Shown piece by piece: positions 11,271 through 54,423 of a stretch of 64,000 nt of DNA (its first letter is position 1; every line of letters begins with the position of its first letter). Origin of the DNA: Buxus sempervirens. Lineage: Eukaryota; Streptophyta; Magnoliopsida; Buxales; Buxaceae. The notes under the pieces were generated by a model. The model was not told where the DNA came from and made no database searches. It saw only the letters and a program-made list of their open reading frames with translations. The stretch is taken from contig OX387189.1 of the NCBI GenBank assembly GCA_947561395.2, positions 27,466,329 to 27,530,328 of the forward strand. The letters are read 5' to 3'. The position numbers and the translations under genes are program-made.

Positions 11271-11306
11271 CTCAACTAATTTGTATGCGGGCTTTTCCTA
11301 AAGTTC

Positions 11307-25378: not shown

Positions 25379-25403
25379 AAAAATTTCGTCCTCGAAATTT
25401 ACC

Positions 25404-28910: not shown

Positions 28911-30086
28911 CTACCTGCCCTGATGTCCGCCGCTACTCTGACCCTGAAATCTCGGCGGTGCCGGTAATGCTGGTGCAGGCCTGGGATACTGGAATCGGGG
29001 AGCAGTATCTGACCGGTTGTCCCCCGGAACTGTGTTAACGGTCTTAAGCAGTTGGTACGAGGCCGGGTGTGGGCATCCTGCCACGCGGTGACCGTGCTGA
29101 CCACATCTGAAACAGGTTCCGGGTGGTGCTACACAGGGACCCGGAATATGGAATCTGCCACAGTTAAAACAGCCTCCATAACTCCTCCTATCTCTATCTC
29201 CATAAGACCCAGAACCTCCAGTATCAAGCCTCGGCCTTTTGTCCCTGTCAGGCATCCTTCGTGGCTCTGGAACGCTAGGCTGCGCTCTCCCTCTGCTCTG
29301 CTCTGGTCCTGAATCGCGGATCTCCCTCTCAACTCGTAGTGCTCTCCCGACTAGGTCAGAATACCTAGTGCACATCAATACTGAGACCATACGCCTGATA
29401 TCGGCCCTCAACCCCCTCTCGAAGTGCTGAGTGCGTCTCTGCTCATCGTGGACGATGTGGTGCGCAAATTGAGAAAGTACCGCAAATCGGGACTCATACT
29501 GTGCCACGGTCAACGAACCCTGAGAGATGTCCATAAACTCTCTCTACTTCTGTAGCCTCACCTCAGCTGAGAAATACTGCTCGTAGAAAACCTGCCTAAA
29601 CTGATCCCATGTCATCTGGATCCCCTCTGCTGTTCGCCTCCTCAAAGACTGCCACCAGTGTTGGGCCTCGCCCTCTAGTGTGAAAGTGGCTAATCGCACC
29701 TTCCGGTCCTCTGGGCAGTCCATGGTATCAAACATACGCTCAACCCTGGCCACCCAGCTCTCTGCCTCCAAGGGATCGGGGACTCCATGGAAGGGTGGGG
29801 CGGTCAACTTCCGAAACTGATCAATGTCCCTCAAGGACAACTCATCTCCTCTTCGCTGCTGCTCTACATCTGCTCCCTGACCATTCCTGTGGCCATTCCC
29901 ATTCCCATTTCCCGTGTGACTCATCCTTTCCTCCCTCTCCAAGGCAAGGAGGTTGGCAAGGGAGCCAACTGCAGCCCAGATATCCTCAACGGCAGGTGGA
30001 GCTCCTCGTGGAGGTGCAGGGGGCTGCTCCTGCGGTATATCCTCCTCCCGAGCTCTCGGGGGTCGGCCTCTGCCTCTGCCAGCCAT
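28911..30086 (-). pseudogene. gag: Tekay Gag
   Basis: This Gag precursor starts at the ATG at 30086 with an RG-rich N-terminus (MAGRGRGRPPRAREE), then the Gag core (FHGVPDPLEAESWVARVE, FTLEGEAQHWW, TWDQFRQVFYEQYF). A CCHC zinc knuckle (CFRCGQHGHRVAGCP) lies near 29090. Gag packages the element RNA in cytoplasmic particles. An in-frame TAG at 29544-29546 splits it and another TAG closes it at 28911-28913. Both are consistent with CAG-to-TAG change. The start is supported by its position about 150 bp downstream of the primer-binding site. Confidence 0.93.
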
Positions 30087-30225
30087 GATTTCCTGAAATC
30101 AACAAACACCATATTAGTTAAGAGCTCTCTTCTATACCTCATGGTTCACCCTCGCGTACACACAGTAATTTCCCCGGGTCTCCTAAGGTCGTACTACCTA
30201 GGAATCTCTAATTCCAGCTTTAAGG

Positions 30226-30237
30226 GCTCTGATACCA
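30226..30237 (-). other. Primer-binding site of the Tekay element
   Basis: TGGTATCAGAGC on the minus strand, four bases after the 5' LTR end, is complementary to the 3' end of plant initiator methionine tRNA, the usual primer for this clade. Confidence 0.93.
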
Positions 30238-30241
30238 TCTC

Positions 30242-32679: not shown

Positions 32680-33169
32680 TGGCATCCTTGTCCCCACTCC
32701 TTAGAAGTTTTTCAGTTAGAAAGGTCTTGGACAAGGTCAATAGTGTATCAGAATTTCCTAAGTCCTTCTTCCCTATACCCAAGAATGTGGAGGCTTCCTT
32801 TTTGTAGCTAGGCTTTAGGGGTGGGTTCACAACTTTTTCAGAAAACCTTAGGCCAAGGATGGTTTCAATTTCTTCTATGGTAGGAGTCATCTTTTTGTCA
32901 TCAAACCGGAAGAGATTCAATTCAGGAACCCAGTGTCCAATCAAAGCTTCAATGATTTCCCACTTGAAGGGAATTTTAGGGATGTGTAGGATATGGCCTA
33001 AGTGGATGGAATCCCAGCGAATCTCCTCATCAAGGGTCATGGAGTTAACCCATCTATCATAGAAGGAGTCCATAACACTGTACCTGGTGAGATTAGGATG
33101 TTTTGATCTAACAGGTTGTCTTGTAGGAGGAGATTCATCGGCAGAAGAGAAAGGGGCGAGGGAAGCCAT
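32680..33169 (-). pseudogene. Element A antisense gene 2, N-terminal part of exon 1
   Basis: This is the first ~163 codons of antisense gene 2, starting at ATG 33169, cut by the Tekay element after GDKDA. It closely matches the start of B's copy (49486), including WVNSMTLDEEIRWDSIHLGH and MTPTIEEIETILGLRFSEKV. The F-G/D-x-x-x-MTPTIEE-x-x-x-ILGL pattern resembles the core of the plant mobile domain / DUF7745 proteins ('aminotransferase-like'), a group found both in host genes and in transposons. Its molecular function is not established. It is antisense to gag-pol and lies between pol and the 3' LTR. The promoter is at 33261-33438. Confidence 0.8.
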
Positions 33170-33260
33170 GCAAATACCAAAGAAGCCAAGGAAAGCAGAA
33201 AACGGAAAGCTCAGGGAGTTTTCAAACTTTTAAAAACGTCACAGTGACGTTCCCCATCAG

Positions 33261-33268
33261 TTTATATA
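33261..33268 (-). promoter_or_regulatory. TATA box of antisense gene 2 (element A)
   Basis: TATATAAA on the minus strand, 92 bp upstream of the ATG and about 33 bp downstream of the iteron array. Confidence 0.7.
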
Positions 33269-33301
33269 GAAAATTCGAACAGGCAGCAAAATCCGTAATA
33301 T

Positions 33302-33438
33302 AATACGAGCATGGCGTGCCCATATAGAGAATATGGACACACTGTGACCGTGAAAAATTTACGGGCAGAGTGCGCTCGTATTAACATTATGGGCACGGCT
33401 TGCTCGTAAGCTAATTACGGTTTCTTCGGAAAAATGCA
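33302..33438. promoter_or_regulatory. Iteron array at antisense gene 2 promoter, element A (28-bp period)
   Basis: Units start at 33302, 33330, 33358 and 33386, exactly 28 bp apart, followed by a half-unit at 33414. Each is 9-N7-9, for example TTTACGGGC-N7-GCTCGTATT and ATTATGGGC-N7-GCTCGTAAG. The consensus half-site is (A/T)TTACGGGC. The same half-site and period occur in element A's LTR and at antisense gene 1. Confidence 0.85.
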
Positions 33439-33632
33439 AAAAAATGGGAAGTTTCAATTTTCATGCTTTCCCAAGTATCACCTATCCCTGCTTTAACATA
33501 TAGCATGCAAGAAAAGCTAGAAATAAAAGGAAAAAGAGCAGAAATGAATAAAAATCAAATTTCTTTTATATATATGAAGGTGTACATCGTTTTGTCAAAA
33601 TACAAGTACATGAATGAATCCTAATCTACTGT

Positions 33633-36507
33633 CTATACAGGTCCACCCCTACGACCACGGCTACGTCCTCTGCCTCGGCCACGGACTAGAGATTGCCGGC
33701 GCTCAAAAACATGTCGCATAATGTTACGGGCTGTACTACGGGTCATCCTGCTCAAAACAGACTGAATATCATGCCACATATATAAAGGCACAAGGCCAGC
33801 AGTGGGATGATCAGGAGGAATGTACCCTGAAGTATCTACATATCCCGTAGACTCGGTATCAGAATCAGTAGAGGCAGACTCAGTCGCAGGACCAGCGGCA
33901 GCAGGCGTCTCCTCTGTAGGCCCCGTGGCAAGATCAGCAGGAATGGACGTCCCAGGAGCGTTAGCATCATGTATAGGCTCTGCAGGCTCAACAGAAGCCT
34001 CCTCTATCACCACGGCCTCCTCGGTAGGCTCCACCACAGCGGCATCCCTGGCCGGCTCCATATCCATATCAGCAAACGCATCAGGAGCGGTCTCAGGTGC
34101 TGGAGCAGACTCTGGCACATCCTCAGTAGTAGGTGCAACCTCAGCCTCGATCTCAGGCTCTGTTGCAAGTGCCTCTATCGATCTAGGAGAAGTCACAAAC
34201 TCCACCCGTGCCACAGAAAATACCTCGCCACGAAGATGCATAGGCACAGATGAAGCAGGTGAAGAAGGGCTGGCTGTGTCATCCTAAAAATAAGAAAAGA
34301 GATTTTAATCAGAACAGGATAAACAGATATAAGAGCAGGTATGGAAAGAGGTGAAAGAATTAACCTGGGTATGAGATGGACCCGCCTGGTCTTGTGCACC
34401 AGAAGGGCCCGCCTGGCCCTGTACCCTGGCAAGCTGTCCCCGGAGATCGGAAATAGTAATGTAAAGGGCGTCCCGCTCGGCAATAGCAGCATCTCGGTGA
34501 CGCTCTATATCAGGATACCGAGATCGGATCTCTGCCAACTGAGCCTCCTGAAATAGAAGAGAAGTGTCAGAAAATGCCAAGACAAATAGAATATATGAAT
34601 TGAAGATCAAAAAAGAGAGGGAATACCGTCGTGTCGTAGGCCCTGATCACTACTCCTCCTATCTCCGTGACTCCGCCACAGACAGGCATGGGTGGCATAA
34701 GGCACCCGACTGAAGCTCGCCTGAACCAGGCATCATAGTCACCCTCCTCCAATAATGTCTCTGCCTTAATCCAATCTAGGAACTGGGCAGGATCAACAGG
34801 CATAGGAGGAAAGGAGGGGGTAGTATCTGGAGGGATGGCAGGAATCCGAGGCTCTCCAACATGCGGATAAAAGAAGCGTCCGCCGCAATACCAGATGCTG
34901 CCCATCTGACCAATAAAGAACTGATATCTCTGATGTCTCTGGTCAGGGGCAAAGGCATCATCTCTAGCCGCATGCAGGGCCAGCACCTCATGAATGTCCT
35001 CCATCCTGGGGACAAACAGTTGAAAAAACAGAAAGAATAACATTAGACATGTGATTCAGAAAGGAAAAAGAGGAGGGAGGAAGAATTAAAGAAGGTTACC
35101 TCAGACCGATATAGCCTGTACAGGTGGGCCCGGGAAGACCTCGGACGACTCTTTTCAGAGTCGTGCTCCACATGACACCATCTACGAGCCATGGGATATG
35201 TCTCCTCTGGCATCGTAGAGGTAGGGCGAAAATAGGGGATATAAACCCTAGCAAAGAACTGCAAAAAGAAGAAAAAGGGTCAAGAAGAATAGAAAAGGAG
35301 AAAAGTGAAAGAAAGAGAAAGAAAGAGAAGAGAAATAGATATTTCACCTGCAGGAAGGGCCAGAAGAATCTGCACCCAACTCCAGCTCCTCTGGAAGTAG
35401 AGAGGCTGCTTACTGATCGGCGCAGGCCGGCTAAAATGGTACCAAAAATGAGCGGGCCCTAGGCGTACCTCCTCCCTTGATGAAGATCTCCCAATAAGCT
35501 CAAAAAATGAGGACTGACAGAAGTCGTGTCCTCTGGGAAGAAGCAGGAGCCCATCATATACAAAAAGATGAAGCGGAAGGCGAATGGAAAAGCTGGATCA
35601 CCGGCGGCAAGCTGGCCAAGCTGCCTCCCCCGGAAGGTCTTTTTCAACCAAGTCAAAGACAATCTCGCTCTCCCTCTATCCCATGCCTCCGGAGGGAGCA
35701 CAATATAGCCAAGATAAGAGGTGATCTCCTCGGCATCCGGCATCACCATCTCGGGAATAATATCACCGATCATCCTGATCCAGGTGATAAGCGTGAAGTC
35801 AGACGGCCGGATCCCAATCTTGATATCTGGAAAATGGAAGCTCAATGTCTCAGGGAAGAACCTCTCGAGCAGCGCCGCAATAAGGGCTCGATCCAGGCAA
35901 ACATCTGGAATGGTGATGAAGAGACCAAAGCCATACAAGCCTAGCTCCCGGCGATAAGCTGAACTGCAATCTCCAATAAATCTAATAAAGCTAGCCCAGC
36001 TCCCATGGTAATGAGACATGGGATACTCCAAAGGGATATCTACCCTAATATATGCTGAAGGATGAGTCCTCAAGCCATGCAAAAGATCAGTATCCCTAAT
36101 CTGGACAGCCACCTCCTCAGGGACCTCAACCCTGGTCCTAGCCTCATCTCTGCCACGGCCTCCTCTGCGGCCTCCTCTACGGCCCTCATGGCCTCCATCT
36201 CTACCTCCGCTGCGGCGCCCTCTACGGCTCCTATCTTGGCCTGAAGCCTCAACTGCCGGCTAAAGAAACAATTGGAGAGAAGAAAGAATCAGGGTGATGC
36301 ATTGTGTGAGGAAGGTGAAATTTCAGAAAGGTTAGAGTATACCTTTGGGGTCGCCTCACGCGAATCCCCAGAAGGAAGATCAGGGATATCAGAATCGGAA
36401 TCCCTCTCGGCCCTCGAAGATGAGGCCACATCAGCATGATCCCGCCGAACCCTCGAAGAGGAGGGCTCATCAGCAGGATCCCTGGAAGCTGATCGAATGC
36501 GGGACAT
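33633..36507 (-). pseudogene. Element A antisense gene 1, plant-mobile-domain protein
   Basis: A six-coding-exon gene, antisense to gag-pol. Predicted exons: 36343-36507, 35348-36259, 35100-35258, about 34627-35019, 34365-34547 and 33633-34283. Exon 2 begins with an RG-rich stretch and holds a plant-mobile-domain-like core (ALLERFFPETLSFHFPDIKI, MGSCFFPEDTTSVSP). Exon 5 is a coiled coil (AQLAEIRSRYPDIERHRDA). Exon 6 is acidic and Pro/Ala-rich and ends in an RGRGRGRSRG tail, typical of nucleic-acid contact. Exon boundaries match element B's copy. Defects: TAG at 35459-35461 (B has TGG), a frameshift just after it, and a likely lost acceptor at exon 4 (CAA in place of CAG). Domain assignment rests on motif similarity; the function is unknown. 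Confidence 0.75.
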
Positions 36508-37506
36508 CTGCGGTTCAAATCAGGGAGATGTTTAATTTTTCATGTTAAAAATTTTTATTGGTTTTTCATTTAATCAAGTTTAATTGTTTGCTGGATTGAA
36601 CAGTGAAGAGTATAAAGGAAAGTGCCTCAGAAGTACAACCAAATTCTGCCAGGGAGGCTGTCCTACAGAACCCAAAATTTTGTTTTTAGGAAACTTTATT
36701 TTTGGTTGTTTAAGAGGAAAAGTGTGAAGGAGTGAACTTTAAAATGGGAATTTTATATGTTAATCCTCTCTTTTGTAAAGGTTCCTAATCATATATTTTT
36801 GGTTTCAGGACGGCCAAGGCAGGTGGTAACAAGGAAAAGGCAGGAGGAATTCAGCTTTCAAAGATTTATTGTATGCAGCTCTAAAAAGTTGGATGAGAAA
36901 GTTCAATGTGGATTAGGTCCTAAATCATCTCGGTAAAAGCAATAAGAAGAAGAAGGTGTTTTTAGAATCTGAGATATCACAGGATTATGCAAAATCAGCA
37001 GCTCAACATCTCAAACTGAGAGCAATCAGTTGGTAAGAAAGGCATGCCCGAACTGGTGTAAAAAGTGTACAAAAGCTCTAAAAGCCTAGGCATGGAAAAG
37101 TCGGAATAACCAGGAAAATATCCAACAAAGAATTATAAACCTTCAAAGATGGAAAACCAAAACATGTGGGCATTTGGAGTTTCTAACAGTAGACATTCAA
37201 AAAAAAAAAAATCTTCAGAAGCAAAGTCCATTCAAATATAGATTGCAGAAGGCTAAGGCAATAAAATCATCATCAGCAATAGAAGCCATATGGAGGATTA
37301 TCAGTATTTGTGCTCATAAATGGCCAAATGTCAAAAAGGAATCAAAATTTCAATACAGCAAATAAGCAGAAATTCAGTTGCTCATTCAAGAACAGAAATT
37401 GCAAAGCATACAATTTGGAGGAATTCTCATCATTCGAAAGCAGAAAATCATGTATTCAAGATGCATTGCAAAGCATTCAGTCAAGAAAAATGAATTTTCG
37501 GCATAC
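36508..37506 (-). other. 5'-UTR intron of antisense gene 1 (element A)
   Basis: The acceptor CGCAG directly abuts the ATG at 36507, and a donor ACAG-GTATGCC lies at 37506. Element B has the same design (42253-43213, acceptor TTGTAG directly before the ATG). No coding sequence is seen inside. Confidence 0.55.
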
Positions 37507-37887
37507 CTGTTTATGTCGAAATAAGGAATGGGCAAAGAAAAGTTGAAGCTCTGAGCACACTCACGGATGGTATCTGATGTGTGTGGAAGCTTTGAACAAA
37601 ATCCCAAGAAATGGGAAGGTGTACCAGTCTCGGCAATGGGGGATGAAAGTCACCGGAGAAGTTGGATCGATCGCCCAATGATCAGGAAAGCAAGTCGCCG
37701 GAGAGAGTGAAGCCGTCGGAGTTAATGGAGAATATGAGAATCGACGGAGTAAACGGTGGTCGCCGGAGTGAACAGTGGTAGCCGGCGAAGTCGAGTCACT
37801 ATTGGAAGAAGCAAGACCGGAGAAAACGGTCGCAGAGAAGTTAGGTCAGAAATGCGAGCAGAAGAGAAAGAAGTTCGCGGCCGCGGT
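37507..37887 (-). other. 5' leader of antisense gene 1 (element A)
   Basis: Non-coding, with repeated CGCCGGAG / CTCCGGCG motifs at 37620-37850. The homologous leader in element B (about 41925-42252) has the same motif on the plus strand. It is probably the first, untranslated exon. Confidence 0.45.
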
Positions 37888-38023
37888 TAAGAAGGAAGCC
37901 AAAATCCGTAAAAACAGTATGGGCTACAGGCACCCGTAAAGGTAATACGGTCCACTTCGCCCGTGTTCAAATTACGGGCATCATCTGTCCGTAATATCAA
38001 CACGGGCGAAGCAGAAAATTGCA
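37888..38023. promoter_or_regulatory. Iteron array at antisense gene 1, element A
   Basis: Units start at 37888, 37916, 37944, 37971 and 37999: a 28-bp period with one 27-bp step explained by a 1-nt deletion in the third unit. The best unit is ATTACGGGC-N7-GTCCGTAAT (37971-37995). The half-site is the same as in A's LTR and gene 2 promoter. The last unit is half degenerate. Confidence 0.8.
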
Positions 38024-38341
38024 TTTTTTATTATTTTCTCCACACTTTTTAGGAGATTAATGTTTATATTAGTTGTAAGTTGCAAGGATTGCCACCTTAC
38101 CCACTTTTGTTTAAAAATTTTGTCTCAAATCTCACTTCATAGCCACGAGTGCTCAGTGAGAGGAGAGAGGAAGATTTGCCCCTTAAGGTGAGGGACTTTT
38201 CAGCAAATCTTCCGCAATGAATTCTTTTTCCAAAATCATCCATTTAATCCTTGCAAAATGCAATTAGTTAGACAAAGATCTCAAAATGTGCAATTGGTGG
38301 GTCTTTTTGCTCTCTGCTCGTAATTGGTTCCAATTACTAGC

Positions 38342-38355
38342 AAAGAGGGGGCAGT
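38342..38355 (+). other. Polypurine tract of element A
   Basis: AAAGAGGGGGCAGT immediately before the 3' LTR. Element B has the same tract in reverse at 41318-41332. Confidence 0.85.
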
Positions 38356-38442
38356 TGTAGACACCCCAAATTGCACTAAAAAAAGAGAAAATAATGAAAA
38401 CATGTAATTGGAATTTAAAACAAGGCAAAAATGCATGAAAAT

Positions 38443-38579
38443 CAATAATTTAAGCCTTGCCCGTATTGTATCTACGGGCTGAGCTCGCCCGAATTTTATA
38501 TACGGGCACGCAGCGCCCGTAATACATATATGGACACCACTGGACCGTAAATCATTTACGGGTGCATTGTTTTTGTGCG
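38443..38579. promoter_or_regulatory. Iteron array of element A's LTR (28-bp period)
   Basis: Units start at 38443, 38471, 38499, 38527 and 38555, exactly 28 bp apart. The cleanest is TATACGGGC-N7-GCCCGTAAT (38499-38523). The first and last retain one good half-site. The array lies about 190 bp upstream of the TATA box. Confidence 0.88.
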
Positions 38580-38763
38580 AATTTTATCCTTTCTCGATTT
38601 CTGAGCTTTATCTTTAGTCCAATATATCTTTAAATGAGCGAATTATCTTTTTTATTCATTCGAAATATCCTTGTTGGCCATGGATGGGCATTATCCTTGT
38701 GTTTAACTCAATCTGAAACTCTATCTTGCCAAACCTTGGACCAGCTATACCCCTGTGTTTGCT

Positions 38764-38770
38764 TATAAAT
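38764..38770 (+). promoter_or_regulatory. TATA box of element A's LTR
   Basis: TATAAAT in 'cttataaataga', about 105 bp upstream of the donor-like CCAG-GTAAGTCCC. Confidence 0.7.
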
Positions 38771-40173
38771 AGAGGGCCTCTCCTCAAGTAAAAGGCCACG
38801 AAAATTTGAAGTCCAAGGAGCTCCAAGAGAAGAGAGGAATCCCTGTTACTCTGCTTGCTCAATCCAGGTAAGTCCCTTTTCCCTTTTATTTTCTGTCTTC
38901 AATTCTAGAAGTAATAGGATCTTCTCTATTGTTGTAGAATAAGGCCATTTTTTATTTTGTATTCCTAAACTTGTCTCTAAGTACCTCAAGAGTCTCTCTA
39001 GCCGTAAAACGTGAAGAGAGAGCTAGGGGAAAGGGGAACAGGTGGATCCCTAAAATAGAACCCTATATCGGTTTTTCTTCTTTTTCATAGAATAAGGCCT
39101 TTGATTGTGTTCGTATACCCAAACCTATCTCCAAGTACCTCAAGAATCATCTCTAGCCATAAAACGTGAAGAGAGAGCTAGGGGAAAAGAGAACAGGTGG
39201 ATCCGTAGGGTAGACCCCCATGTACTCTAATCTGTGAGATGTGGCTACTTTTGAATATCCTGATCATGTTTTAATGGTTTTTATGTTGAATCTGAATGAA
39301 TCCTATGAATCTATGATGATCATGATGATTATAACATGAGATCCCCACTTTTTGCTAAAATTTGGATTTTCACCACTTTTGCACCTACAGCACTGTTTTC
39401 GTGATTTTTGTGATATTAGGCTAAGATCCTGGATCTATCATGATCAATATGATAGATCTGGGTTCAGAAGCTTGAAAGTAAATTCTAGGGTTTCATGATG
39501 TGGTTTTTGAATCGTTTTTCACTTTTGAGAGAAGAGCCTACGGTCTAAGTTCTCCCCTTTTGATGTTCTTCATCAACGTGGGTATTTTTGGTTTTGATTT
39601 TTTGATTTAACGTGAAATTTGGGCTATATCTATGTCCTGGACTATTCAAGTTCAATTTTGCAATGTTTTATAAAAATCATATTTTTCTAGATTTCTAGAA
39701 TTTAACTTGAATCCAGATTTTTGAAGTTTTCACTTTAGATTGGTTTTATTTGATTTTATCTCAATTTTATTTTAATCATGAAATGCTAGGAATGGTATGA
39801 TCATATTTGAAAGTTCTGGATCAATCAGGCTATTCGTATGAAAAAACCATACACTTTTGTCTTTTTTATGATTTTTCATGATTTTTGTAGCAAGCCTTTT
39901 TTCCTTTATTTTAACATGAACAATACCTGGCAACCACCTTGTGTGGATGAATAGGGGTGCCTAACACCTTCCCCTGTTCATAATCTAATCCCCTTACCCA
40001 TCTCTGGTTGTTTTTTTAGAGGATTATTTTCACCCTAAATTTGCCTTTTTTGCTTATTTGATATTTTGGTGTCCATTCACACCTAAACAGAATGGTGGCG
40101 ACTCTGTGTTTTTTTACCAATCCCACGTGATGATTGAGGAAGTCATTGAATTGATTTTTTCCCATGTCTCATA

Positions 40174-41317
40174 CCATTCTCTCCGATTGGAAAGAATATG
40201 CCAAAAACCCCAAAAGTGAGCAAAAATGCCCAAAACCGAGAGGTTAGACCTAGAGGTCTTCAAGATTTGAAATAAACTTGATTGAAATCGATAACGAACA
40301 TCCCAGAATTGCTTGGGGCTATTTATTTTAGATCTACCACAATGACGGCAATAGATCCAAAATACGAGCCAAATCCGACAAAACAAGTGCTATGTGTGTG
40401 TGTAAAAATCCATTCTTCAATAATATAACAACATATAGCATGCATTTATATCAATCAAATGGGGTTCTAAAACAACTTAGGGTTCCGTTCCATTATTGTT
40501 TCCCTTAGTTCTCTCTCCCCGTTTAACGGTTCTTCGAGATAATCTTGGGGTACTTTGAATATGAAACGGTTTTCATAGAATCAAAAGGCTTATTCCAATA
40601 AGGTTCTAACACTAGGATCAATGCTCAATCTCGTTTCCCCTAGATCCCGCCTTCACGTTTTACGGCTAGGGGGAGTCTCGAGGTACTTTGAGTAGAGGAA
40701 GGGTTTTCACACACACAGATTAGGCCTTATTCTACAGAAAGGTAGAAGAAGAGAACTAAACCTAGAATGTAAGACAGAAAAATTAAAGAAGGTTTTAGGC
40801 TTACCTGGGTTCTGGGAGTAGTGCGGCAGCGGTTCCCTTCTTCACTCGGAGTTCTTCAATCTCCAACTTATTGGCCATTTGCTTGAGGAGGAGCCTTCTA
40901 TTTATAGGCAAAGGCTAGGGTTAGGGTTTGCATGATGGTAGACACAAAATAATGTCTAGAGCCCACCAACCTTAACCCTAAGGCTATTTCCGAGATTTCC
41001 ACTCCTTTAATGAAGGATATGATGGTAAAAAGTGAAAACTCTCGGAAAACCCTAATTTTGAGCAAAAAGCTTGTATTCGACATATCAGGTTGGATACAAG
41101 AGCACCTATATGTATCCGACATATGTCATCGGATACATTAAGAGCTGCTTATATCCGACAACTTATGTCGGATAGAAAGAGGTATGCTTGTATTTGACCT
41201 GAGTTGTCGGATATAAGAAGAAATGCGTATTTCTCAAATTCTGTGCTGGTTTTAAAGGAAAGAATGATTTTTGCTAATTATTCATCATTTTTATTGTGCA
41301 ATTTGGGGGTGTCTACA
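40174..41317 (-). mobile_element. 3' LTR of element B, truncated
   Basis: On the minus strand it starts TGTAGACACCCCC at 41317 and is collinear with S1 for about 1.1 kb, then stops at the edge of element A's LTR. The 3' part is missing from this window. Minus-strand TATA: 40900-40906. A donor-like CCCAG-GTAAGCC lies near 40806. The iterons are at 41073-41214. Confidence 0.85.
41073..41214. promoter_or_regulatory. Iteron array of element B's LTR (39-bp period)
   Basis: Units start at 41073, 41112, 41151 and 41190, exactly 39 bp apart, all 25 bp with a 7-bp spacer and TATCCGAC-type half-sites. Number, spacing and half-site match S1. Confidence 0.9.
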
Positions 41318-41332
41318 ACTGCCCCTCTTTGT
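41318..41332 (-). other. Polypurine tract of element B
   Basis: Minus-strand ACAAAGAGGGGCAGT directly before the 3' LTR, nearly identical to element A's tract. Confidence 0.85.
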
Positions 41333-41844
41333 GGGAGTTGTGAAGCAATGAGCTGCAAAGATTAGACAAGCCCAATTTGCACTCCCTTAACCATGATTTC
41401 CTTGGTTCAATTCAATTTTGCAAAATAATTTTTGGGTGAAGATTTACCAAAAAGCCCTAACTTTAAGGGGGGCATCTCTCCAAGATGTCTTAAATTCCAC
41501 TGAGCTCTCGTGGCTATGAAGTGGATTTTAAGCCCAAAATAAGATTTTTGAAAACTGATTTTTTCATCAGACCAAGTTAAAAATTGAGTAAATATTTTCC
41601 CTTTTGATCAACACATTTTCTAAAGTTGTCCTAAATTCCACTGAGCTCTCGTGGCTATGATGTGGATTTTAAGCCAAAAATAGGGTTTTTGTGAAAATAG
41701 CAGCCTTTGTAGCACCCTTTTTTCTTTTCCTTTTTCTTTTTCTCTTTTTCTTTTTCTCTTTTTTCTTCTTTTTTTTTCTCTTTTTTTTTTCTGTTTTTCT
41801 CCTTTTTCTTTTTTTTTTTTCTTTTTTTTTCCTGTTCTTCTTTT
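41333..41844. other. Non-coding region upstream of B antisense gene 1
   Basis: A diverged tandem duplication (about 41475-41560 and 41630-41700) shares 'cactgagctctcgtggctatg'. It is followed by a T-rich tract of about 135 bp (41706-41840). The lysine-rich open frame on the minus strand is an artefact of the tract. Confidence 0.6.
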
Positions 41845-41908
41845 GTATCCGACATAGTTGGTCGGATAAGAAGACCTCTATTTGTATCCGACATGCTTCG
41901 TCGGGTAC
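41845..41908. promoter_or_regulatory. Iteron pair upstream of B antisense gene 1
   Basis: Two units, at 41845 and 41884, exactly 39 bp apart: GTATCCGAC-N7-GTCGGATAA and GTATCCGAC-N7-GTCGGGTAC. The half-site is the same as in B's LTR. No clear TATA box follows. Confidence 0.82.
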
Positions 41909-42252
41909 ACTTGTTTTTACTTAGTCGTGCGCGACCGCGACTTTTCCTTTCTACTCTTCTTCTCCGAATACTCAGACCGGATGCCCCTTTTCTCTTCTCC
42001 GTCCCCGACAGCTTCTCTTTCTTTTCCGGTGACTTACTTTCTCTCCGACGACCTCCATTTTTGCCGACGTTAGCCCTTAACTCCGGTAACACTCCAGTGA
42101 TCACCCATTTACGGCAGTGGTCGAGCCCTAGCTCAATCTCCTCTAATTTTCAATGATTTTCTCAGCTCAGCGCTGTCGCCTTTGCTCCGGTGATTTCCTC
42201 TGAGTTCCGGCGACTTGTTCTTCACCAATCCAACTTACCTGCTTGCAATCAG

Positions 42253-43213
42253 GTACTCCCTTCTTTGTTGCCGCTCAAACAGTAAGTAATTCGGCACAGT
42301 CAAGCATGCTCTTTTTTTTTTCTTCTTGCATAGCTTCACCGAATCTGCCACATCCAAGCATGCCTTTTTCTTTGCTTTGATTTTGTCTATTCATCATGCT
42401 GGATTATTGTTGATTGGGTTTGATACTTGCAATTGATCGCCCATTTCTCATCGTGGCATGATTCTCTGATTTTGTATTTTCAATACTGTTGATGCTGGAT
42501 TTTTCAGACTTAATGCCATGCTATTTGTTTTGTCTTGCCGATTCCTGCTATGATTCCTGGTAACAATGGCTTGCTTCTTTGGTGATACCCTTGAATTGGC
42601 AGTATTTTGGATTGCCTGCCGGTGGTATTTGCTGATTGCATGCTTTTTGGATTGTATGCTTGAAATGCTGGTGTCATGCTGGATTTTTTTCAAACTTGAT
42701 CCGATTTTCTGCAATTCCTTAGGATTGACCTGCCAGTGATATTTTCCTACCGAAATTGCTGATGTTCCAATGCCTTTTGAATTGCCGGAAAAATTGCCTA
42801 CTCAGATGCCATGCTGATTTTAGTATGTCTTTGACTGTCAGAATTTTTCCATGATTGGCCTTTGGGTCCCACAGCTTGTTTTGATCTCTGACCTTTTACT
42901 GTTCTGTCTTCATGTAGCAATCTTGAAATAAATTAACAGATATTAAGCCGTGTAAATATCTTTAGGACAAAATGCTTAGAACCAGAATAGAAAAAAACTT
43001 TGAACTGAAACAGATGACAAAAGTAACATAAGATTCCCTCGAGACACACAAAAATCATGTAAGATCCCTGATGAATTAGAACCGAAACCTAGACCTAAAG
43101 CAAGGTGAGATTCCTGATAAATTTGAACTGAAACCTAGACTAAGAGAAAGGTAAGATTCCTGATAAGCAAAGTAGGATAAATTTGAACTGAAACACTTCC
43201 CTGTTGCTTGTAG
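42253..43213 (+). other. 5'-UTR intron of B antisense gene 1
   Basis: Donor ATCAG-GTACTCC at 42253 and acceptor TTGTAG ending at 43213, immediately before the ATG. It matches the intron at 36508-37506 in element A. No coding sequence is seen. Confidence 0.55.
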
Positions 43214-45659
43214 ATGGCTAGCAGTCGTTCTCGCGCCCGAGAGGAGGTTGATCCAGCTGATCAGCCTTCTTCTTCTCAAGCCCGGACAGAGGCGAGTTCT
43301 AGCGCTACCCTGTCGGAGCCGCTAGCTGATTCCAGAGAGTGCTCTGGAGAGGGTTCTGCTGAGGTAGGTTTCCCAATTCTTTCTTTCTCTTCTTGCTTCC
43401 CTTGAAACCGACTTCGCTCATTCATTTATGCTTGTAGCCCGTTGTTGTTCCCGCTCGAGTTCGGGGCAGAGGCCGAGGCAGAGTTCAGGATCAGGCCCTA
43501 GGGGATTCCATTTGGCATTTCCTGAGGATTTGAGGGCATCTGTTCAGGACACCGAGCTTCTTAGTGGATTGGATCATCGTCCTTCGATGTGTGTCCGGGC
43601 AGATCTTCCTCTTCAGTATCCCCCTTCTCATCTGAGAGGTAGTTGGGGGAGGTTCTTCGAGCTGTATCAGACCCTATCTCTCAGACTCAGACGGGAGTTC
43701 CGTAGATGCTGTTTTGATCATTTTCTGCTTATCCCGTCGTTCCGAGCTGATCGCCCGCTCATCTTTGCCATGCTGGAGCGCTACTTTCTTGACACCCAGT
43801 CTTTCCATCTGCTGGACGTTGAGCTGGGGATTCGACCTTCAGAATTTGTCATGCTCACTGGCATCCCTTTGACTGGTAGGACCATAGAGATGGAGCATCC
43901 TTCTGCTGCGGATATCGGCACCCTGCTAGGATATGAGGATTTTCCTAAGGCTGCTTGGGATGGCAGGAGTGGACGGATTTCTATCAGCTGGTTGCGCGGC
44001 AGCATTGTTGATCACCCTGACTGGAAGCACGCTATTATTGCTGAGGCTGATGACGGTTTCGTCCCTTTATTTCGACCGGTCTTCCTGTTGATGCTGGGCA
44101 GCTGCTTTTTCCAGGAGGATACGACGTCGGTCAGTCCTGTCTTCTTGGATGCCCTGAGGGATCTTTGGCAGACCAGGCGGCTTGCATGGGGTCGGTTGAT
44201 ATATGGGACTATATTAGCCGGACTGAGTTGAGTTGTCTGAGGTCTGGCCGCTCCGAGGGGAGATGGTATCAGCTGCTGATTTTTCTGGTAGATCTTACAG
44301 GTAAGGAATATTTTGACTTAATTCCTTGAAATTATTTTATCTCCTTCTAACTTGTTTTCTTTCCTTGCCAGATATTGATCATGTATTCATATATGACCTA
44401 CTTCCGCCCTTCTCCCGTGCCCGCTGCTGCAGTGTTTCCCGTAGCCATACGGTGGTCTGTTTTTGAGAGGGACGCAGATAGGAGCCAGCCTCGATCGGCC
44501 TGGGCGCACTTAGACCGCTTTCGCCATTCTGATGTAAATTTCCCTTTCCCTTCAATATTCTCTTTTCTTTAATACTGCCCTTGTATCTGACACTTTTTAT
44601 TTTGATTGCAGCTAATACTGGCCCGCTTCGAGGATGTGGATGACGAGGTTGCTCGTCAGGAGATGGTACAGGACGCGTTTGAGTGAGATGTGCGATGCCA
44701 GTCCTACCAGTGTTTCATTAGGAGACTTGGTAGGATTGTGTACTTAAGCGAGCGCCTGTACCTTCAGCACACCAGCATCCTTCGTAGCTCAGTTCCTCCG
44801 CCCCCCGTTGGCCCTACTATCCTCCGGCCCGGATTTGATGTCGCCCAGTTTGATCAGTGGGAGGATGCAGAGGTGCTTACTGTGGCTGGGGATTATGATG
44901 AGTGGATCCAGAGAGTATCCATTGGGTGCTTGATGGATTGACCCACCTATGCTGCAGTGACAGAGATTGGCGGGATCTATATCTGGGTCCATGATGATAC
45001 TGTGAGTTTTGTGATCTTCATTTTTCATCTCATCTCAGGGATCGGTTTCAGAGTCAACGGGCCGCGGTTGATGACATGATCGCGGAGCATGACGCGGTTG
45101 TAAGCACCTTATTTTTGCACCCCTGGAAGTGCTGAAAATGAAAACCCTGGCGGAAAAGTCAAACCCTGAGGGGACGAAAAGTTGACTTTTTGATCAGGTG
45201 ATAGTTGACTACCTTGCTTTATCTCAATGGATAGAGAATCCCGACACGGTTCCAACGCGACTGAGTTTGCAGGAATCAGAGTCCGGATGAAGGTTCTGCG
45301 GGTGGTCAAACTTAAGCGGGAGCTGAAAGTTGATTTTCTGCTAAACCCCGATCCAGGTGCTTACACCCATGCCATTGGATTGAGGGCTCCGATACGGTTC
45401 TAACGCAACTGAGTTTGCTCAAATCGGAGTCCGGATGAAGGAGATATAAGCTGTCGAAGTTTCCAAGCAGCAAAACCCAGAAAGCTGCACACGTGGCGAG
45501 TGGCGCAAAAAATATCTCGAGGGGCAATTCGTAAATATCCAAACATGCAAAATATCCCAGGGTTTAAAGCAAAATTTCGCAGGGACCAAATCTGTGAATA
45601 TCTGAGAGTATCGGATGAATCTGCGAATATCGAGGGGCAAATCCGTAATTTTTTTATTT

Positions 45660-45906
45660 GCATCCAATCGAATATTTCGGATACACGTACCCTTGTGTAT
45701 ATCCGACACTATTCATCGGATACAAAGAGATCCGCCAGCGAGATTCGAGCCGATTCCCCGACAAATTCGCGGCGGCATTTAAATTTCGAAATTATTATGT
45801 CTTGTATCCGATATAATATGCCGGATACAAAGGAAGTGCAGTGTATCCGACATAATTTGCCGGATACAAACGAAGTGTAGTGTATTTGACATTGAATGCC
45901 GGATAC
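45660..45906. promoter_or_regulatory. Iteron array of E1, promoter-proximal
   Basis: Five units: 45660 and 45699, then 45804, 45843 and 45882, each 39 bp apart within its group. The half-sites are TATCCGAC/TATCCGAT-type with CCGGATAC or TCGGATAC right arms. The last ends 10 bp before the TATA box. Confidence 0.85.
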
Positions 45907-45915
45907 AAAAATTTA

Positions 45916-45923
45916 TCTATAAA
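45916..45923 (+). promoter_or_regulatory. TATA box of E1
   Basis: CTATAAAA just downstream of the iterons and about 290 bp upstream of the donor-like AAG-GTATGG. Confidence 0.7.
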
Positions 45924-47105
45924 AAGGCAACTGCAGCCCCATTTTGGGGGTTGGCTTCTTTTTTGCTGTTTCTCCCTTCCTTCCCCCTTGGCTACTGCTC
46001 CGAAATCCCCTTTTCTTGCCCCCCTTTGGTTCCCCAAACCCTTCAACATTATCTCAAGGCTCTCCTACTCTCTCTTCTCTTCTTCTTCTCCATCTTCACT
46101 CCACCAAGAAGGAGAGTACCTGCTGTTGGTGTGTAAAGGGAGGGCTCCAACACCTGTTCTTGCTTCAAGGAGAAGACTACACACTTCAAAGGGGTTTTAA
46201 AACCCCAAGGTATGGTCCCTTGACATATTTTATTCTACATATATTAAAATGAGGATGTTTTGAGCATGTGCAGAAGGTTTATCTCTTCTTGTTGAAATGG
46301 ATCTGTTAATCAGGTTTTTAGCCTATTTTTCTCCTCTTTTATATGATATGAAAGGCCTCCCATGGTAGGGGGAGTGCACGTATGGTTATGAGAAAAGGCA
46401 AGAATGATTTTTGGTCACTTCCAAAGGTCTCCAAGGTGTTACTTTGCTGTTGAAATTTCCCATTTTGCATAGGGAGCATGTTCCCTTTTCCAACAATCAA
46501 ATGTACCCCATTTTAAACCCCCTCATCCGCTTCTTTAAAGTGTTTTCTTAAATGCTTCTGGGTGTTGTTTGAGCATAGGGTTGTGTCGGGCTTGTTGGCA
46601 TGTTTAGGGTAGATGATGCGTGTGTGTTTTTATGTTCTCATATTGATTCCTTTCAAGCTCCTAGTAGTGGTATGCATGTTTTCCTTTCCGACACATGCTC
46701 ACACATGAAGCATGCTTGCTCACGCACACACTCTTATTTCATGTATAAGAATCTGTAAAAATGAATGTGCCGTTCATGGTTTAGGAGCATGCTTACTAGG
46801 TTTTGTTGGGAGACTGGTGCTTGCCTTGTATGTCCATTGATATGTGAAATGGGAAGAACCAAGTAGGGACACCTAGGTTCCTGCTCAGCCGCTGGGAGTA
46901 TCCCAAGAATGGGAGGAGGCAACACCTTAAGCCTCCTCCCCCTTGCTTGAACCACTAGAGTCCCAAAAGAAGGCAAAAATGGAGTCTTCCCCATCTCTCT
47001 GAACCTCTGTGGGCTCACACAGGAGCCCACACAATCACTGGAACTCCCCAAGAAGCCTAAAAACCCAACCCCAATGCAAAAATCACAAAAACAGCTTCTG
47101 TATGT

Positions 47106-47208
47106 TGATCTGGCAACTTAGGTTGGATCAACAGAGCTGTATTCGTAGCCGGCAAAAAATGCCGGATACACTGAGACCTGTGTGTAATCGGCATCTTAGG
47201 TCGGCTAC
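47106..47208. promoter_or_regulatory. Second iteron array of E1
   Basis: Three units at exact 39-bp steps (47106, 47145, 47184), with dialects TGATCTGGC..., GTAGCCGGC-N7-GCCGGATAC and GTAATCGGC-N7-GTCGGCTAC. It lies in the 3' part of the LTR, far downstream of the promoter. Confidence 0.75.
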
Positions 47209-49214
47209 ACTGCCAGATTGCTTTTCTTGCCATTTTCAGATCTTGTGCTGTTTTTTTTGGTTTGTTTGATCAATTTGGGCGAACCAGTGGGGTTTCCGGG
47301 TCACCCGGAAACCCAAGGTGGGCCTTGGACCAACCTGGTCCAAATTGATTTCCGGTGGGCCTTCCAACGGGGCCCACCAAGCCCGACAAACCCATTTTTG
47401 CTAAATGAAGACAATCAAATTAATCGAGTGGGCTGGACCATTGGAGGCCCACCCAAGCCTAGTTTCAGTGACATGTTGCTTAGATTTAGGCATGGTTTGG
47501 CCGAGACCATGGGTAAGGCCGATCGGGCCTGCTAAAGCCCATTAAATCGAACCAATTTTAGGGTTTCCAAACCCTAACTCATGAAGACTTGGGCTTTCGA
47601 GCCCAAGCCCAAATCCTGGCCCACTTTGGCATAGATTAAGAAAGATAATCAAAACTACTTGGCAACCAACTGCGTGGCCCACTCAAGGGCCCACAAAGCA
47701 ATCCCGGCCCACATTGGCATAGAAATCCACTCAAATTTAAATAAAATCAATTCATTGAACCAAAGCCCAAAGGGCCTCTCAGGTTTAGACAGAGGCCCAC
47801 CAAGGGAACATGTGGGTTTAACCAAGCCCACCAAGGGATCTGCAGACCTTCCAACAGGGCCTGCCCAATCAGACTCAGATCACTCTAAGTTAAAAGAAGG
47901 TAAAATCAAGTAAAGGGACCCACACCACTTTGGTGGTCCCACCAGACTTAATCAAACTGAATGCTGGAATAAGAATCGGGTGAGTGAGAGACCCAAAAGC
48001 TGACTCAAAACCAGGAAGACTATGGGACCCGTCATTCGACGGGGTGGACTGGGGTGTCTACGGACTTCCCCAGACCGCAACCGAGAACCTACTTAGAATC
48101 TCAAGCCGCAAACCAAGCCCTAATAGACAAACTTAGGCACCCAGGTGTCCACCTGCACTTCATCAGGCGGTGGCGACTCTAATATTCCAATTTTTACCCG
48201 TGCGACCGAAATGAGGTGCGCACAGCGGTTGTGGCCCAGAGAGATGCCCGGATCAGAGAGTTGGAGGCTCTGGTTTCTGAGCTTCAGGCTAGACATGTAT
48301 CTGGTTTTTTATGATTTCATCTCTTTTATTTCTATGACTTTCTGCTGTTCTGATATGAATTGTTTGACTTTTGCAGGATTCAGTCCCAGATCATGACGTC
48401 TCAGTTGGGCCAGACCCTCCTGTTTCGGATCCATCTCCAGTTCGGGCTGCTGATCCTGAGGATGCCCCAGCTGCTGACTCGGTTGTAGTCCCTGTACCCG
48501 CTGCTCCTATGGATCCTGTGGGTCCTTTATCTCTAGTGATGGTTCCTGAGCCAGAGGACGTCCCTGCTGCTGACCTGGTTGAGCCAGATCCCCCAGTTCC
48601 TGCTGCAGACACCCCTGGTAAGTTTTCTTTAGCTTTGCCTCTTTGGTTCATCTTGATACCTCAATTTCTGACTCTTTCTATTGACCCAGCTATTTTTGTT
48701 CCTGGTCCTTCTTCTGCTGCTGTCGAGCCTTCTGGAGTTGTAGGAGTTAAGACTGCCGCGGCCGAGGATTCAGCTGCACCTGAGGTGGCTCCCCTGCCAG
48801 TTGAGCCTGTTCCTGCTGGGCCTGAGGCTTCTTCGCCAGATTCTGCTCCTGATCTGCCTCCTGACCTTTCGGACTATTGCTTGGAGTATCAGCTTCAGTC
48901 CATTGTGGGCCGGAGACCGCGCTACATAGCCGAGCGTCTTCTGGCATATTCTAGGCGTCGATCTCCTCGAGGTAGAGGCCGCAGAGGAGCGCGGGGGTGA
49001 TCCTGCACAGTAGTAGGAGATTAGGATTTCTATTTTTTTTTCATTATCACTGTACAAACGAGACTTATATATATGAAAAAAACTTTTTATTCATTCTCTC
49101 TTGTGTTGCTTTCTTTTCTTTTCATTTTCATGCAATTCAGACTTGTATACAGGTGAAACAGGTAAAAAATTCGGATTTTCCTCCATTTTCTCTTTTTTTT
49201 TGCCTTTTTTCTTT

Positions 49215-49357
49215 GTATCCGATATATCAGATCGGATACATTGATATTTTTTTTGTATCCGTCAAACTATATCGGATACACACAAGGTGGCTTGTATCCG
49301 GCATTGTTCATCGGATATGAAGAAATGCTTTTGTATCCGATCTGATATATCGGATAC
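49215..49357. promoter_or_regulatory. Iteron array at B antisense gene 2 promoter
   Basis: Units start at 49215, 49255, 49294 and 49333 (steps 40, 39, 39; the extra base is in a T-run). Two units have perfect 9-bp arms, GTATCCGAT-N7-ATCGGATAC. The array ends 12 bp before the TATA box. Confidence 0.9.
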
Positions 49358-49369
49358 ATTAAAAAATGT

Positions 49370-49377
49370 TATAAATA
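49370..49377 (+). promoter_or_regulatory. TATA box of B antisense gene 2
   Basis: TATAAATA, 109 bp upstream of the ATG at 49486. Element A's copy has TATA 92 bp upstream of its ATG. Confidence 0.75.
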
Positions 49378-49485
49378 CGACTGGCATCGGGATTTGAGTC
49401 GTTTTTATGACTTTTTGAGTTTAGAGAACCCCTTTTTCGCTTTTTTCTTCCTTCCCTTGATCCTTAGCTCGCTCCATCATCTCCA

Positions 49486-51186
49486 ATGGCTTCCGGATCA
49501 TCTTCTGCCCTACCATTGTCTATCCACGCAGCCTCCCCTGCAAAACAACCTTTTAGAGCAAAACCCCCTAATCTCACTAGGTACAGCCCTATAGATTCAT
49601 TATACACTAGGTGGGTCAATTCCATGACCCTTGATGAAGAGATCAGATGGGATTCTATTCATTTAGGCCACACTTTGCTCATCCCTTCCATCCCGTTCAA
49701 GTGGGAAGTTATTGAAGCCATGATTGGCCATTGGGTACCTGACCTAAACCTTTTTCGTTTTGGAGACCATGAGATGACCCCCACCATTGAAGAGGTTGAA
49801 ACCATCTTGGGCTTGAGGTTTGCAGAGAAGGTAGTGAACCCACTCCTTAGGCCTAGTTACAAGAAGGAGGCTTCTACTTTTCTGGGTATAGGGAAGAAGG
49901 ATTTAGGGGATTCTGACACCCTTTTGACTTTGTCCAAGTCTTTTCTGACTGAGAAGCTCTTGAGGGGGGAGAACAAGGAAGCCAGGTTCAATGCCCTAAC
50001 CCTGATAGTGGTTAACCAACTGCTTTTTCCACGGGATAACGATGAGGTCGACTTGGCCCTTATCTCAGTTGTATGCCAGGTTAGGGAGCAGGAAAGATTG
50101 GCCCCTATGATTTTGGCAGGGATGTACTAGGCTTTGACTAACTGTTATTACAGGAAGAAGAAGCGCTTCCTAACATGTGCCCCTATCCTGCAGGTAAACC
50201 CCCTTTTTTTTTCTTTTTCTTTTTGCTTTTTTTCTTTTGCTTGCTTTTTTTTTTTCCTTACAATATACTGAAATATCCCACCTCCTTTGCAGCTTTGGTT
50301 ACTTGACCACCTGAGTCAGATTGAGGAGATCAATCGACACTTCTTCCCAAGCTTGAAGGTTCCCATCTTGATGAGCAACCGGGGGTGTCCTGACATTCCA
50401 GGAGGTAAACAGGGCTGGTTTACTTTCTTGGCTACACTCAAGGATGATCAGGTGAGGTGCCCTGGTATTTATCAGCCCAATGCAGAGACAGTGATCAGTT
50501 TTCGAGATCGCAACTTTTTGGTTCTGGCTGGCTTGAGTCGTGCTGCGCTTTACCTCCCTTTGCGGGTTTTTCGTCAGTTCAGAGTGACCCAGGGGATTAT
50601 AATCCCAAGTGGATACGAGGACTATCTTGGGCAACTTTTACCAACCACCATGAAGCTGAACGCTTGGTTGATGAGGGAGTGGTCCTACGTTCGTTTCATG
50701 CGGAGCCTCGTCTTCTCAGAGTGCCATGTGAAGGACTATCTCTTCTGGATCAAGGAACAGATACAGAGTCAGGCCCCAATACCCGAAGATCCTCCTGCAG
50801 TTTTGGCTCCTACCTATGAAGACATCCTGGAGTCTGAGAGAGCCTCCCACAAGCGACTTCAGCAGATATGGGTACGAGAGGCTCAGGAGCTTAGGATACG
50901 AGGCCTTGATATGGAGAGGCAACTTGAAGAGCAGGTATCCCGCCGTCTGGCTATGGAAAAGCAACTTGAGGAGCAGCGGCAGGCTTGCCTCTTTGAAGTC
51001 CGAGTACTGTGGCAGAAGCACCAAGATGCTTTAGCCAGCCTTAGGAGCCTAAGGATCAGGCAGACTCTTTCAGATGAGGTCATTTCCTTCTTGAGTGATC
51101 CCGCTGCAGAGGGGGCTTCTGGGGTTATTGCAGCTTAGGCAGCTCGGATTCGGGAGCTTGAGGAGCGGCTAGGAGACAGAGACTAG
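49486..51186 (+). pseudogene. Element B antisense gene 2, DUF7745/PMD-like protein
   Basis: This is the most complete copy of antisense gene 2. Exon 1 is 49486-50193 and exon 2 is 50293-51186, separated by a 99-nt intron (GTAAACCCCC...CTTTGCAG) with a T-rich tract. The N-terminal ~240 residues contain WVNSMTLDEEIRWDSIHLGH and MTPTIEEVETILGLRFAEKV, resembling plant mobile domain / DUF7745 proteins. Exon 2 has a conserved globular part (GNRGCP-like, GKQGWFTFLATLKDDQVR) and a long C-terminal coiled coil (RLAMEKQLEEQRQA). Two TAG stops (50128-50130 and 51136-51138) both stand where element A's copy has CAG. It has its own TATA box and iteron array. Function unknown; binding to the iterons by this or the gene 1 product is a testable idea, not shown. 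Confidence 0.8.
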
Positions 51187-52178
51187 CCTTATTTCCTGCA
51201 CATTTTTTTTATACCTTTGTACGAAATTAAACTCCAATAGTGGAAAGACAAAGGATTTAATTCAAAATAAATTTTTTATATTATTGGCCTCAGAATGCTC
51301 AGATGCTTGTAAAAACAAAGGTTTTATGAAAAGTATTTGATTTATCATCACTGGCCAAAGTATAGTTTTTCTTTTTATTTTTTTTGTTTTTTTATTTTTT
51401 TATTTTTTGAAATTTGGTCCATATACTTAATCACCCATAATTTAAGGAATTAAAACCACGTTAAATAATGAAAAGGGTAATCCAAAAAATAAGGAGGGAT
51501 CAAGTTTGTCTATCTTAGGGCCTTTAGAGTCATCCCCAAATGGCTTTTCCTCCATGTTCGACCCCGTTATTCCCAATCTGCTCAGTCTCAGTACTTGTGC
51601 TGATTTCTCTTCAAGCTTGGATCACATGATCAACTCAACGTCTGATTTTTTTTTTCATTTCATTTTCTTTTTTTTTCTTTTTGCCAATATTGCCCCTAGT
51701 GCTAGTTACGGTTTTCACTAGGGCCGGCTTTTGCATTCCGTCATCACCAATCTTACTCTGAAATTTGAATGAACAAACTAAGATCACTGAGGACTTAAAA
51801 ATAGGACGAAACAAAGGCTAGGCTTGGTTTATGAAAGAAAAGGTATTTAAAGGCTCCAAAATTTTCAAATGTGGAAATAGGTCAACCGGACTTACAATCA
51901 TGATGAATTTAACCCTTTTTCCCCAAAATGTATCCTTTTTATCTCTTTTCACACTTGGCTTTCATTTGCCATTTTTCTTTGCTTTTTCTCTCTTTTCCTC
52001 TTTTCCTTTATTTTTGCCCCAATTGGCCTTGCCCCAATTTGTTTTGCCCCAGTATAAGACTATAAGTCCGGTTTAGGTTTATCAAAGAAACGAACCGGCT
52101 CAACTCGGCAAAACTATGGATCAAAATTTGAGGGAAATAAAGAAGGACGGCCTCGGATCATTTCCTAGTAATATTCAA
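51187..52178. other. Spacer between B antisense gene 2 and pol
   Basis: This is the homologue of 20685-21631. T-rich tracts occur at 51360-51410 and 51645-51690. No coding sequence or clear terminator is seen. Confidence 0.6.
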
Positions 52179-52238
52179 TCAAGGAAAATACCTTTTTACT
52201 GCATCAGAGTTAATTGGCTCAGGAAAATCTGTCCCATC
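52179..52238 (-). pseudogene. pol: Element B integrase, last codons
   Basis: These are the final 19 codons and stop of pol, ending RYFP as in element A. They are separated from the rest by E3, whose TSD CCATC is at 52234-52238. Confidence 0.85.
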
Positions 52239-54177: not shown

Positions 54178-54423
54178 GTATCCGGTCACACATACCGGAT
54201 ACACTGCCTGTCCTTCATGGCCGGACTTGAAGACCGGATACATCAAGATATTCGCGCGAGATCTGCGCCGATCGCCCGACAAATTCGCGGCGGCATTTAA
54301 TTTTCGAATGATTATGTCTTGTATCCGGACTTGAAGACCGGATACAAAGGGAAGCTAGGGTATCCGGACTTGAAGTCCGGATACAAAGAGGCCTTAGTGT
54401 ATCCGGCCTGAGTGGCCGGATAC
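54178..54423. promoter_or_regulatory. Iteron array of E2, promoter-proximal
   Basis: Units start at 54178 and 54217, then 54321, 54360 and 54399, 39 bp apart within groups. The layout is that of E1, but the half-site is GTATCCGG(N): for example GTATCCGGC-N7-GCCGGATAC and GTATCCGGT-N7-ACCGGATAC, with perfect arms. TATA follows about 10 bp after the last unit. Confidence 0.9.

Follow-up and report, generated by a model that had tools for sequence, protein, structure and literature searches.

The 64,000 nt stretch of Buxus sempervirens DNA considered here (contig OX387189.1 of assembly GCA_947561395.2, forward-strand positions 27,466,329 to 27,530,328; hereafter the window) was found by sequence analysis to consist of nested retrotransposons. 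Two of these, A and B, are classed here as related Ogre-like Ty3/gypsy elements carrying an antisense gene for a plant mobile domain (PMD) protein (gene 1) and a second antisense gene for a DUF7745 protein (gene 2). The first-pass annotation had proposed that all three promoters of each element, in the long terminal repeat (LTR) and before both antisense genes, bear arrays of one and the same half-site; we found such arrays in the six intervals, as follows (coordinates are those of the window).

38443–38579, plus strand: array in the U3 of the A LTR; dyads at 38472, 38500 and 38528 plus outer half-sites, period 28; TATA box at 38764
37888–38023, minus strand: array upstream of A antisense gene 1; dyads at 37917 and 37972
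33302–33438, minus strand: array in the promoter of A antisense gene 2; dyads at 33303, 33331, 33359 and 33387, period 28; TATA box 35 bases downstream
41073–41214, minus strand: array in the U3 of the B LTR; dyads at 41074, 41113, 41152 and 41191, period 39; TATA box at 40906
41845–41908, plus strand: array upstream of B antisense gene 1; dyads at 41846 and 41885
49215–49357, plus strand: array in the promoter of B antisense gene 2; dyads at 49216, 49256, 49295 and 49334, period 39–40; TATA box at 49370

Element-specific dyads with a common geometry

In the arrays of A and B, half-sites of 8 bases form inverted pairs separated by 7 bases, a fixed 8-7-8 geometry. The A dyad is close to TTACGGGC-N7-GCCCGTAA, repeated with a period of 28 in the LTR and the gene-2 promoter, and the gene-1 promoter holds two dyads 55 bases apart; the B dyad is close to TATCCGAC-N7-GTCGGATA, with a period of 39 (40 once). 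That the half-sites are element-specific, as had also been proposed, agrees with the counts: half-sites with at most one mismatch to TTACGGGC occur in 3/3 A arrays and 0/3 B arrays, and those with at most one mismatch to TATCCGAC in 3/3 B arrays and 0/3 A arrays. Half-site identity is 0.72–0.89 between arrays of one element and 0.28–0.44 between arrays of different elements.

The further idea that each element has a private code held up only in that neither of the two codes matches in the other element. It failed for B, because D-type LTRs, otherwise unlike B LTRs, carry near-B dyads of the same geometry. D-type LTR sequence, which starts with TGTAAGCACC, occupies 45099–48224 as a solo LTR with a GCGGT duplication (D1), and extends from 52239 to about 58100, where it is apparently nested (D2). 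The TATCCGRN dyads of these LTRs share the B geometry and the 39-bp period, with A or G at half-site position 7 in D1 and G in D2, and the array is the sole BLAST match of the D-type LTRs to B-type sequence. B-type dyads are also present in a solo LTR lying within element A.

13604–16076, plus strand: solo B-type LTR inside the A gag-pol region, with a CTAGG duplication; dyads at 13707, 13746, 13785 and 13824
45805–45905, plus strand: array of the D1 solo LTR; TATCCGRY-type dyads, period 39; TATA box at 45918; further dyads at 45700, 47146 and 47185
54322–54422, plus strand: array of the D2 LTR; TATCCGGN-type dyads, period 39; TATA box at 54435

New with respect to the first-pass annotation are the constant 8-7-8 arrangement, a period that depends on the element (28 or 39), the solo LTR of B type and the near-B code in the D LTRs.

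The array lies upstream of the TATA box in 5/5 LTRs examined and in both gene-2 promoters, with the TATA box 13 to 35 bases after the array at the gene-2 promoters and in D1 and D2, and 168 to 201 bases after it in the A, B and solo LTRs. No TATA box was found for gene 1 in 37400–37917 (A) or 41907–42400 (B). This location would be appropriate for promoter-proximal control elements. A function as RNA hairpins was rejected as the principal explanation, because in the five LTRs and both gene-2 promoters the arrays precede the TATA box and fall outside the expected transcript start; for gene 1, where no TATA box was found, a hairpin function is conceivable.

We scanned the window for tandem palindromes, with no knowledge of the motifs, over 735 combinations of spacer and period. 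Period 39 ranked first: spacers 7, 9 and 11 each gave 11 pairs, and these are the same palindromes, with shared centres. The combination of spacer 7 and period 28 gave three pairs, all in A; three pairs were also obtained with six other combinations, one of which (2,30) falls outside the arrays. No combination of spacer and period exceeded one pair in five Markov-simulated windows.

Matrices were trained on the LTR arrays alone (the eight half-sites of the A LTR for one, the B LTR for the other) and scanned over the 64 kb, with thresholds (17.1 for the A matrix and 20.5 for the B matrix) at which 60 simulated windows yielded zero dyads. The five best non-training dyads for the A matrix (37972, 33359, 33303, 33387 and 37917) are all in the A antisense promoters; the next three (15.2–15.4) are in D-type sequence and score no higher than simulated dyads can (up to 16.6 in 60 simulations), and the fourth gene-2 dyad of A, at 33331, scores 13.7, below those three and below the threshold. 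With the B matrix, the 19 best dyads are all in B-type arrays: four in the B LTR (training), two in the gene-1 promoter, four in the gene-2 promoter, four in the solo LTR, four in the D1 LTR and one in the D2 LTR, the last scoring 18.6, below the threshold. Cross-tests were empty, with no dyad reaching 13.5 (maximum of -5.1 for the B matrix in the A arrays and 3.2 for the A matrix in the B arrays). These are two cases and not a population test, and a label shuffle of the six arrays cannot go below 1 in 10. An exact B-type dyad appears once in each of five contigs of the viral collection; these were dismissed as chance matches, with no second dyad within three mismatches.

Organization of the elements and their antisense genes

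Element A lies on the plus strand, with gag from 11280, pol to 20684, the two antisense genes and the 3′ LTR from 38356. Element B lies on the minus strand and comprises the 3′ LTR from 41317 downwards, antisense gene 1, antisense gene 2, D-type sequence and then pol. Their main features are as follows.

16077–20684, plus strand: A pol region, with Pfam matches to reverse transcriptase, RNase H, a second RNase H and integrase, in that order
38356–40173, plus strand: A 3′ LTR, with a polypurine tract directly before it; end set by similarity to the end of the solo LTR
33633–36507, minus strand: A antisense gene 1, with several exons; PMD above the Pfam cut-off, Arg-rich C-terminus; start codon read from the sequence
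32681–33170, minus strand: first part of A antisense gene 2 (DUF7745), interrupted by the insertion at 22924–32680
21640–22922, minus strand: remainder of A antisense gene 2 beyond the insertion, broken by stops; lower boundary approximate
40297–41317, minus strand: B 3′ LTR; limits given by the reach of similarity to the solo LTR
43214–49000, plus strand: B antisense gene 1; PMD just under the Pfam cut-off and an Arg-rich C-terminus; split by the D LTR at 45099–48224
49486–51138, plus strand: B antisense gene 2 (DUF7745), with an in-frame stop at 50128

In element A, the second RNase H (aRH) lies between the first one and the integrase (order RVT_1, RT_RNaseH, RVT_3/RNase_H, rve), a trait common to Ogre and Retand elements. 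Because of this order and of the antisense PMD, element A appears to fit the Ogre lineage (Tat clade of Ty3/gypsy) as described in PMC6317226; the B pol was assessed only by comparison with that of A. No 5′ LTR of element A was found within the window, and the LTR at 13604–16076 was discarded for that role, being the B-type solo LTR. An LTR-like sequence in the opposite orientation, noticed by eye only, occupies 11000–11280, directly before the A gag and at the expected site of the A 5′ LTR. A G-patch domain precedes the reverse transcriptase in the A pol region (16433–16552). The insertion in A antisense gene 2 is a chromodomain Ty3/gypsy element (22924–32680) whose LTRs are 99.6% identical over 2442 columns. 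The solo, A and D LTRs differ otherwise but have in common a GGTGGCGACTCT box close to their 3′ end (15995–16006, 40094–40105, 48169–48180 and 56556–56567; four matches with at most one mismatch vs. 0.16 expected).

The PMD match (PF10536) of gene 1 reaches 37.9 bits in A and 31.3 in B (cut-off 34.9), and in gene 2 DUF7745 is above and PMD below the Pfam cut-off. Neither copy of gene 2 is intact, because that of B has the in-frame stop and that of A is also broken. The Pfam domain TRP28 (PF04195), a mark of Retand open reading frames (ORFs), had no match in the gene-1 and gene-2 pieces searched. No relatives were found of pol or gene 2 in the viral contigs, of pol in the prokaryote genome contigs (four pattern matches, none confirmed), or of gene 1 among the 8000 candidates scored in the protein collection.

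Divergence between A and B differs widely among genes. Their pol is 90% identical over 438 codons, with 0.045 nonsynonymous substitutions per site (dN), from three of six same-frame pieces (the other three being 90, 93 and 95% identical). Gene 2 is 79–86% identical in the four pieces used, with dN of 0.07–0.13 (among the three not used, one has 86% identity and the two from the C-terminus have 65 and 66%). In gene 1, identity is down to 42% over stretches of 193 and 84 codons, with dN of around 0.59 (41 and 43% in two short pieces not included). Synonymous divergence is around 1 per site in pol, whereas gene 1 is saturated at such sites. The gene 1 PMD protein is our first candidate for a factor binding the dyads, because gene 1 diverges most between A and B and ends, in both elements, in an Arg-rich tail; the gene 2 DUF7745 protein may instead be the binder, or both may act together.

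Maintenance of the dyads and their possible reader

Half-sites agree between the arrays of one element (0.75 in A and 0.85 in B) while the inner spacers diverge (0.31 and 0.43, respectively), an agreement for which recent copying of blocks offers no explanation. The D1 and D2 LTRs show a similar pattern, with identity at 39/48 half-site bases, 4/21 inner-spacer bases, 19/32 linker bases and 293/433 bases elsewhere. In a comparison of the A and B LTRs, BLAST still aligns the flanks at either side of the array (69% and 71%) and finds no match in the array itself; the code has changed jointly at all three places between the two elements. Tandem Repeats Finder, run on 33000–50000 with a score of 30, reported the D1 array and 0/6 of the A and B arrays. 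A simple tandem duplication is thus disfavoured, as the half-sites agree with differing inner spacers and the six arrays went unreported.

We directly observed the arrays, their geometry and position, the agreement within and the discordance between elements, and the strong divergence of gene 1. The explanation that we prefer, tentatively and at slightly short of even confidence, is that a dimeric regulator encoded by the element, most likely the gene 1 PMD protein, couples the LTR and antisense promoters through the 8-7-8 dyads. This is suggested by the LTR-trained matrices, each of which picks out its own element's antisense promoters but not those of the other element, as well as by the retention of half-sites over spacers, the arrays before the TATA box, the joint change of code, and the divergence and Arg-rich tail of gene 1. 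Each element would encode a dimeric DNA-binding protein, that of gene 1, perhaps with that of gene 2, which would bind the inverted repeats upstream of its own LTR U3 and of both antisense genes. It would then activate its own promoters or keep them unsilenced, and the production of genomic RNA would thereby be coupled to the synthesis of the regulator. Protein and sites would have changed together between families, hence the A and B codes without cross-match, and the D LTRs may use or share a B-type factor. Binding, the identity of the binder, its dimerization and the sign of regulation are the conjectural parts of this proposal.

Several observations weigh against an element-encoded regulator. 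The comparison involves only two elements, and the B code is found in the D LTRs too. Since synonymous sites are saturated in gene 1, its divergence could reflect an older or recombined block rather than fast evolution. Between the solo and B LTRs, the half-sites do not stand out in conservation (57/64, vs. 24/28 for inner spacers, 36/48 for linkers and 645/726 for the rest), no solved structural relative was found for gene 1 or gene 2 at E values up to 1, and PMD proteins are not known to bind DNA.

The strongest alternative, although we consider it unlikely, is that each family recruited a different host transcription factor, or a different member of one factor family, serving all three promoters. 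There is a precedent in the Tnt1 subfamilies, whose U3 regulatory regions diverge while other parts stay similar (PMC1838419). One geometry in A, B and D would suit a single family of host factors, and the near-B code of the D LTRs, otherwise unlike B, would suit a shared one. Recruitment of a host factor, however, requires all three promoters of an element to switch jointly, and the part diverging most alongside the promoters is the element's own gene 1. Nor is any host factor known to us whose site is an 8-7-8 dyad of TATCCGAC or TTACGGGC, which we count against this explanation.

It is improbable that the antisense protein binds the dyads as a repressor of the LTR and of its own genes, limiting copy number. 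Sites shared by the LTR and the promoter of the protein's own gene permit either sign, and MAIN and MAIL1, host PMD proteins, act in transposable element silencing (PMC5418596, PMC7156037); nevertheless, wherever a TATA box was found the arrays are upstream of it, an arrangement commoner for activation. More improbable still is the copying of arrays among the three places of an element, by recombination or template switching and with no common binder: the gene-2 promoter to LTR region could have diverged as one block, there being only two elements, and the D1 array is a recognizable tandem repeat, but the arrays of an element match in half-sites and not in inner spacers, as do those of D1 and D2, none of the six was reported by Tandem Repeats Finder, and the LTR array was replaced between flanks that still match.

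Comparison with known systems

The VANC anti-silencing proteins of VANDAL transposons, for which binding to a motif and demethylation were demonstrated (PMC5735166), also act on short family-specific motif arrays in non-coding regions of the element, and the motifs of related families differ. Arrays of this kind, non-coding and element-specific, are what we found here, except that the B code extends to the D LTRs; likewise, the VANC6 motif is also present in the unrelated AT9TSD1 (PMC5735166). VANDALs are nonetheless DNA transposons encoding an unrelated protein, their VANC motifs share one orientation instead of forming inverted dyads of fixed geometry, and binding was observed there, whereas here it is postulated (PMC5735166). 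The antisense pieces from the window match only PMD and DUF7745, and these Pfam matches set them apart from VANC.

Antisense genes between pol and the 3′ LTR also occur in Grande, RIRE2 and Retand, where a regulatory role was proposed for them, and gene23 of Grande has its own promoter and a nuclear product (PMC11963269, PMC7264820). The available portions of these descriptions do not include a motif common to the LTR and an antisense promoter, and the ORFs of Retand differ from those of A and B in carrying TRP28. Ogre elements share with A the second RNase H between RNase H and integrase and a PMD in their extra ORFs, found in 57% of the Ogre elements surveyed in PMC6317226; the accessible text of that survey doubts that these ORFs are functional and does not mention shared promoter arrays. 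The antisense genes of Ogre/Retand-type elements are described as lacking a known function (PMC7264820, PMC6317226). As for the Tnt1 superfamily, the regulatory U3 module of the LTR diverges and other parts stay similar, without extra genes or concerted change at further promoters in the portions available (PMC1838419).

Genes that carry a certain promoter motif require the host PMD (PMD-C) proteins MAIN and MAIL1 to be expressed (PMC7156037, PMC9899485), and loss of the PMD protein lowers the expression of genes bearing it (PMC7156037, PMC9899485, PMC5418596). Gypsy-encoded PMD clades are relatives of these host proteins (PMC5418596), and gene 1 of A and B, like the PMD-A of that study, lies in a Gypsy element. 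MAIN and MAIL1 differ in being host genes, and their published DOWN motif, CATGCAGTTT, is unlike the A or B dyad; they are not known to bind it directly.

Antisense genes with a proposed regulatory role, PMD in Ogre and Gypsy clades, and the recognition of family-specific motifs by VANC are thus already known. We found no report of a motif common to LTR and antisense promoters among the open-licence literature matches listed, whose coverage leaves aside subscription journals and preprints. A shared element-specific site at the LTR and antisense promoters provides a direct hypothesis of function for the antisense genes, and supplies a 23-bp probe per element. Should the PMD protein bind this site, it would be a second, unrelated kind of transposon-encoded, family-specific regulator in plants, and a role as sequence-specific regulators would be plausible as the original one of host PMD proteins. 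It is possible, though we hold it with slightly less confidence than the coupling of promoters itself, that these Ogre elements possess a self-recognition system in which the retrotransposon-encoded PMD protein reads a family dyad code at the LTR and its own promoters, protein and code co-diverging and the D LTRs riding along. Such a system would give LTR retrotransposons an equivalent of VANC that uses a different, unrelated protein, and would suggest that the function ancestral to MAIN and MAIL1 was of this kind.

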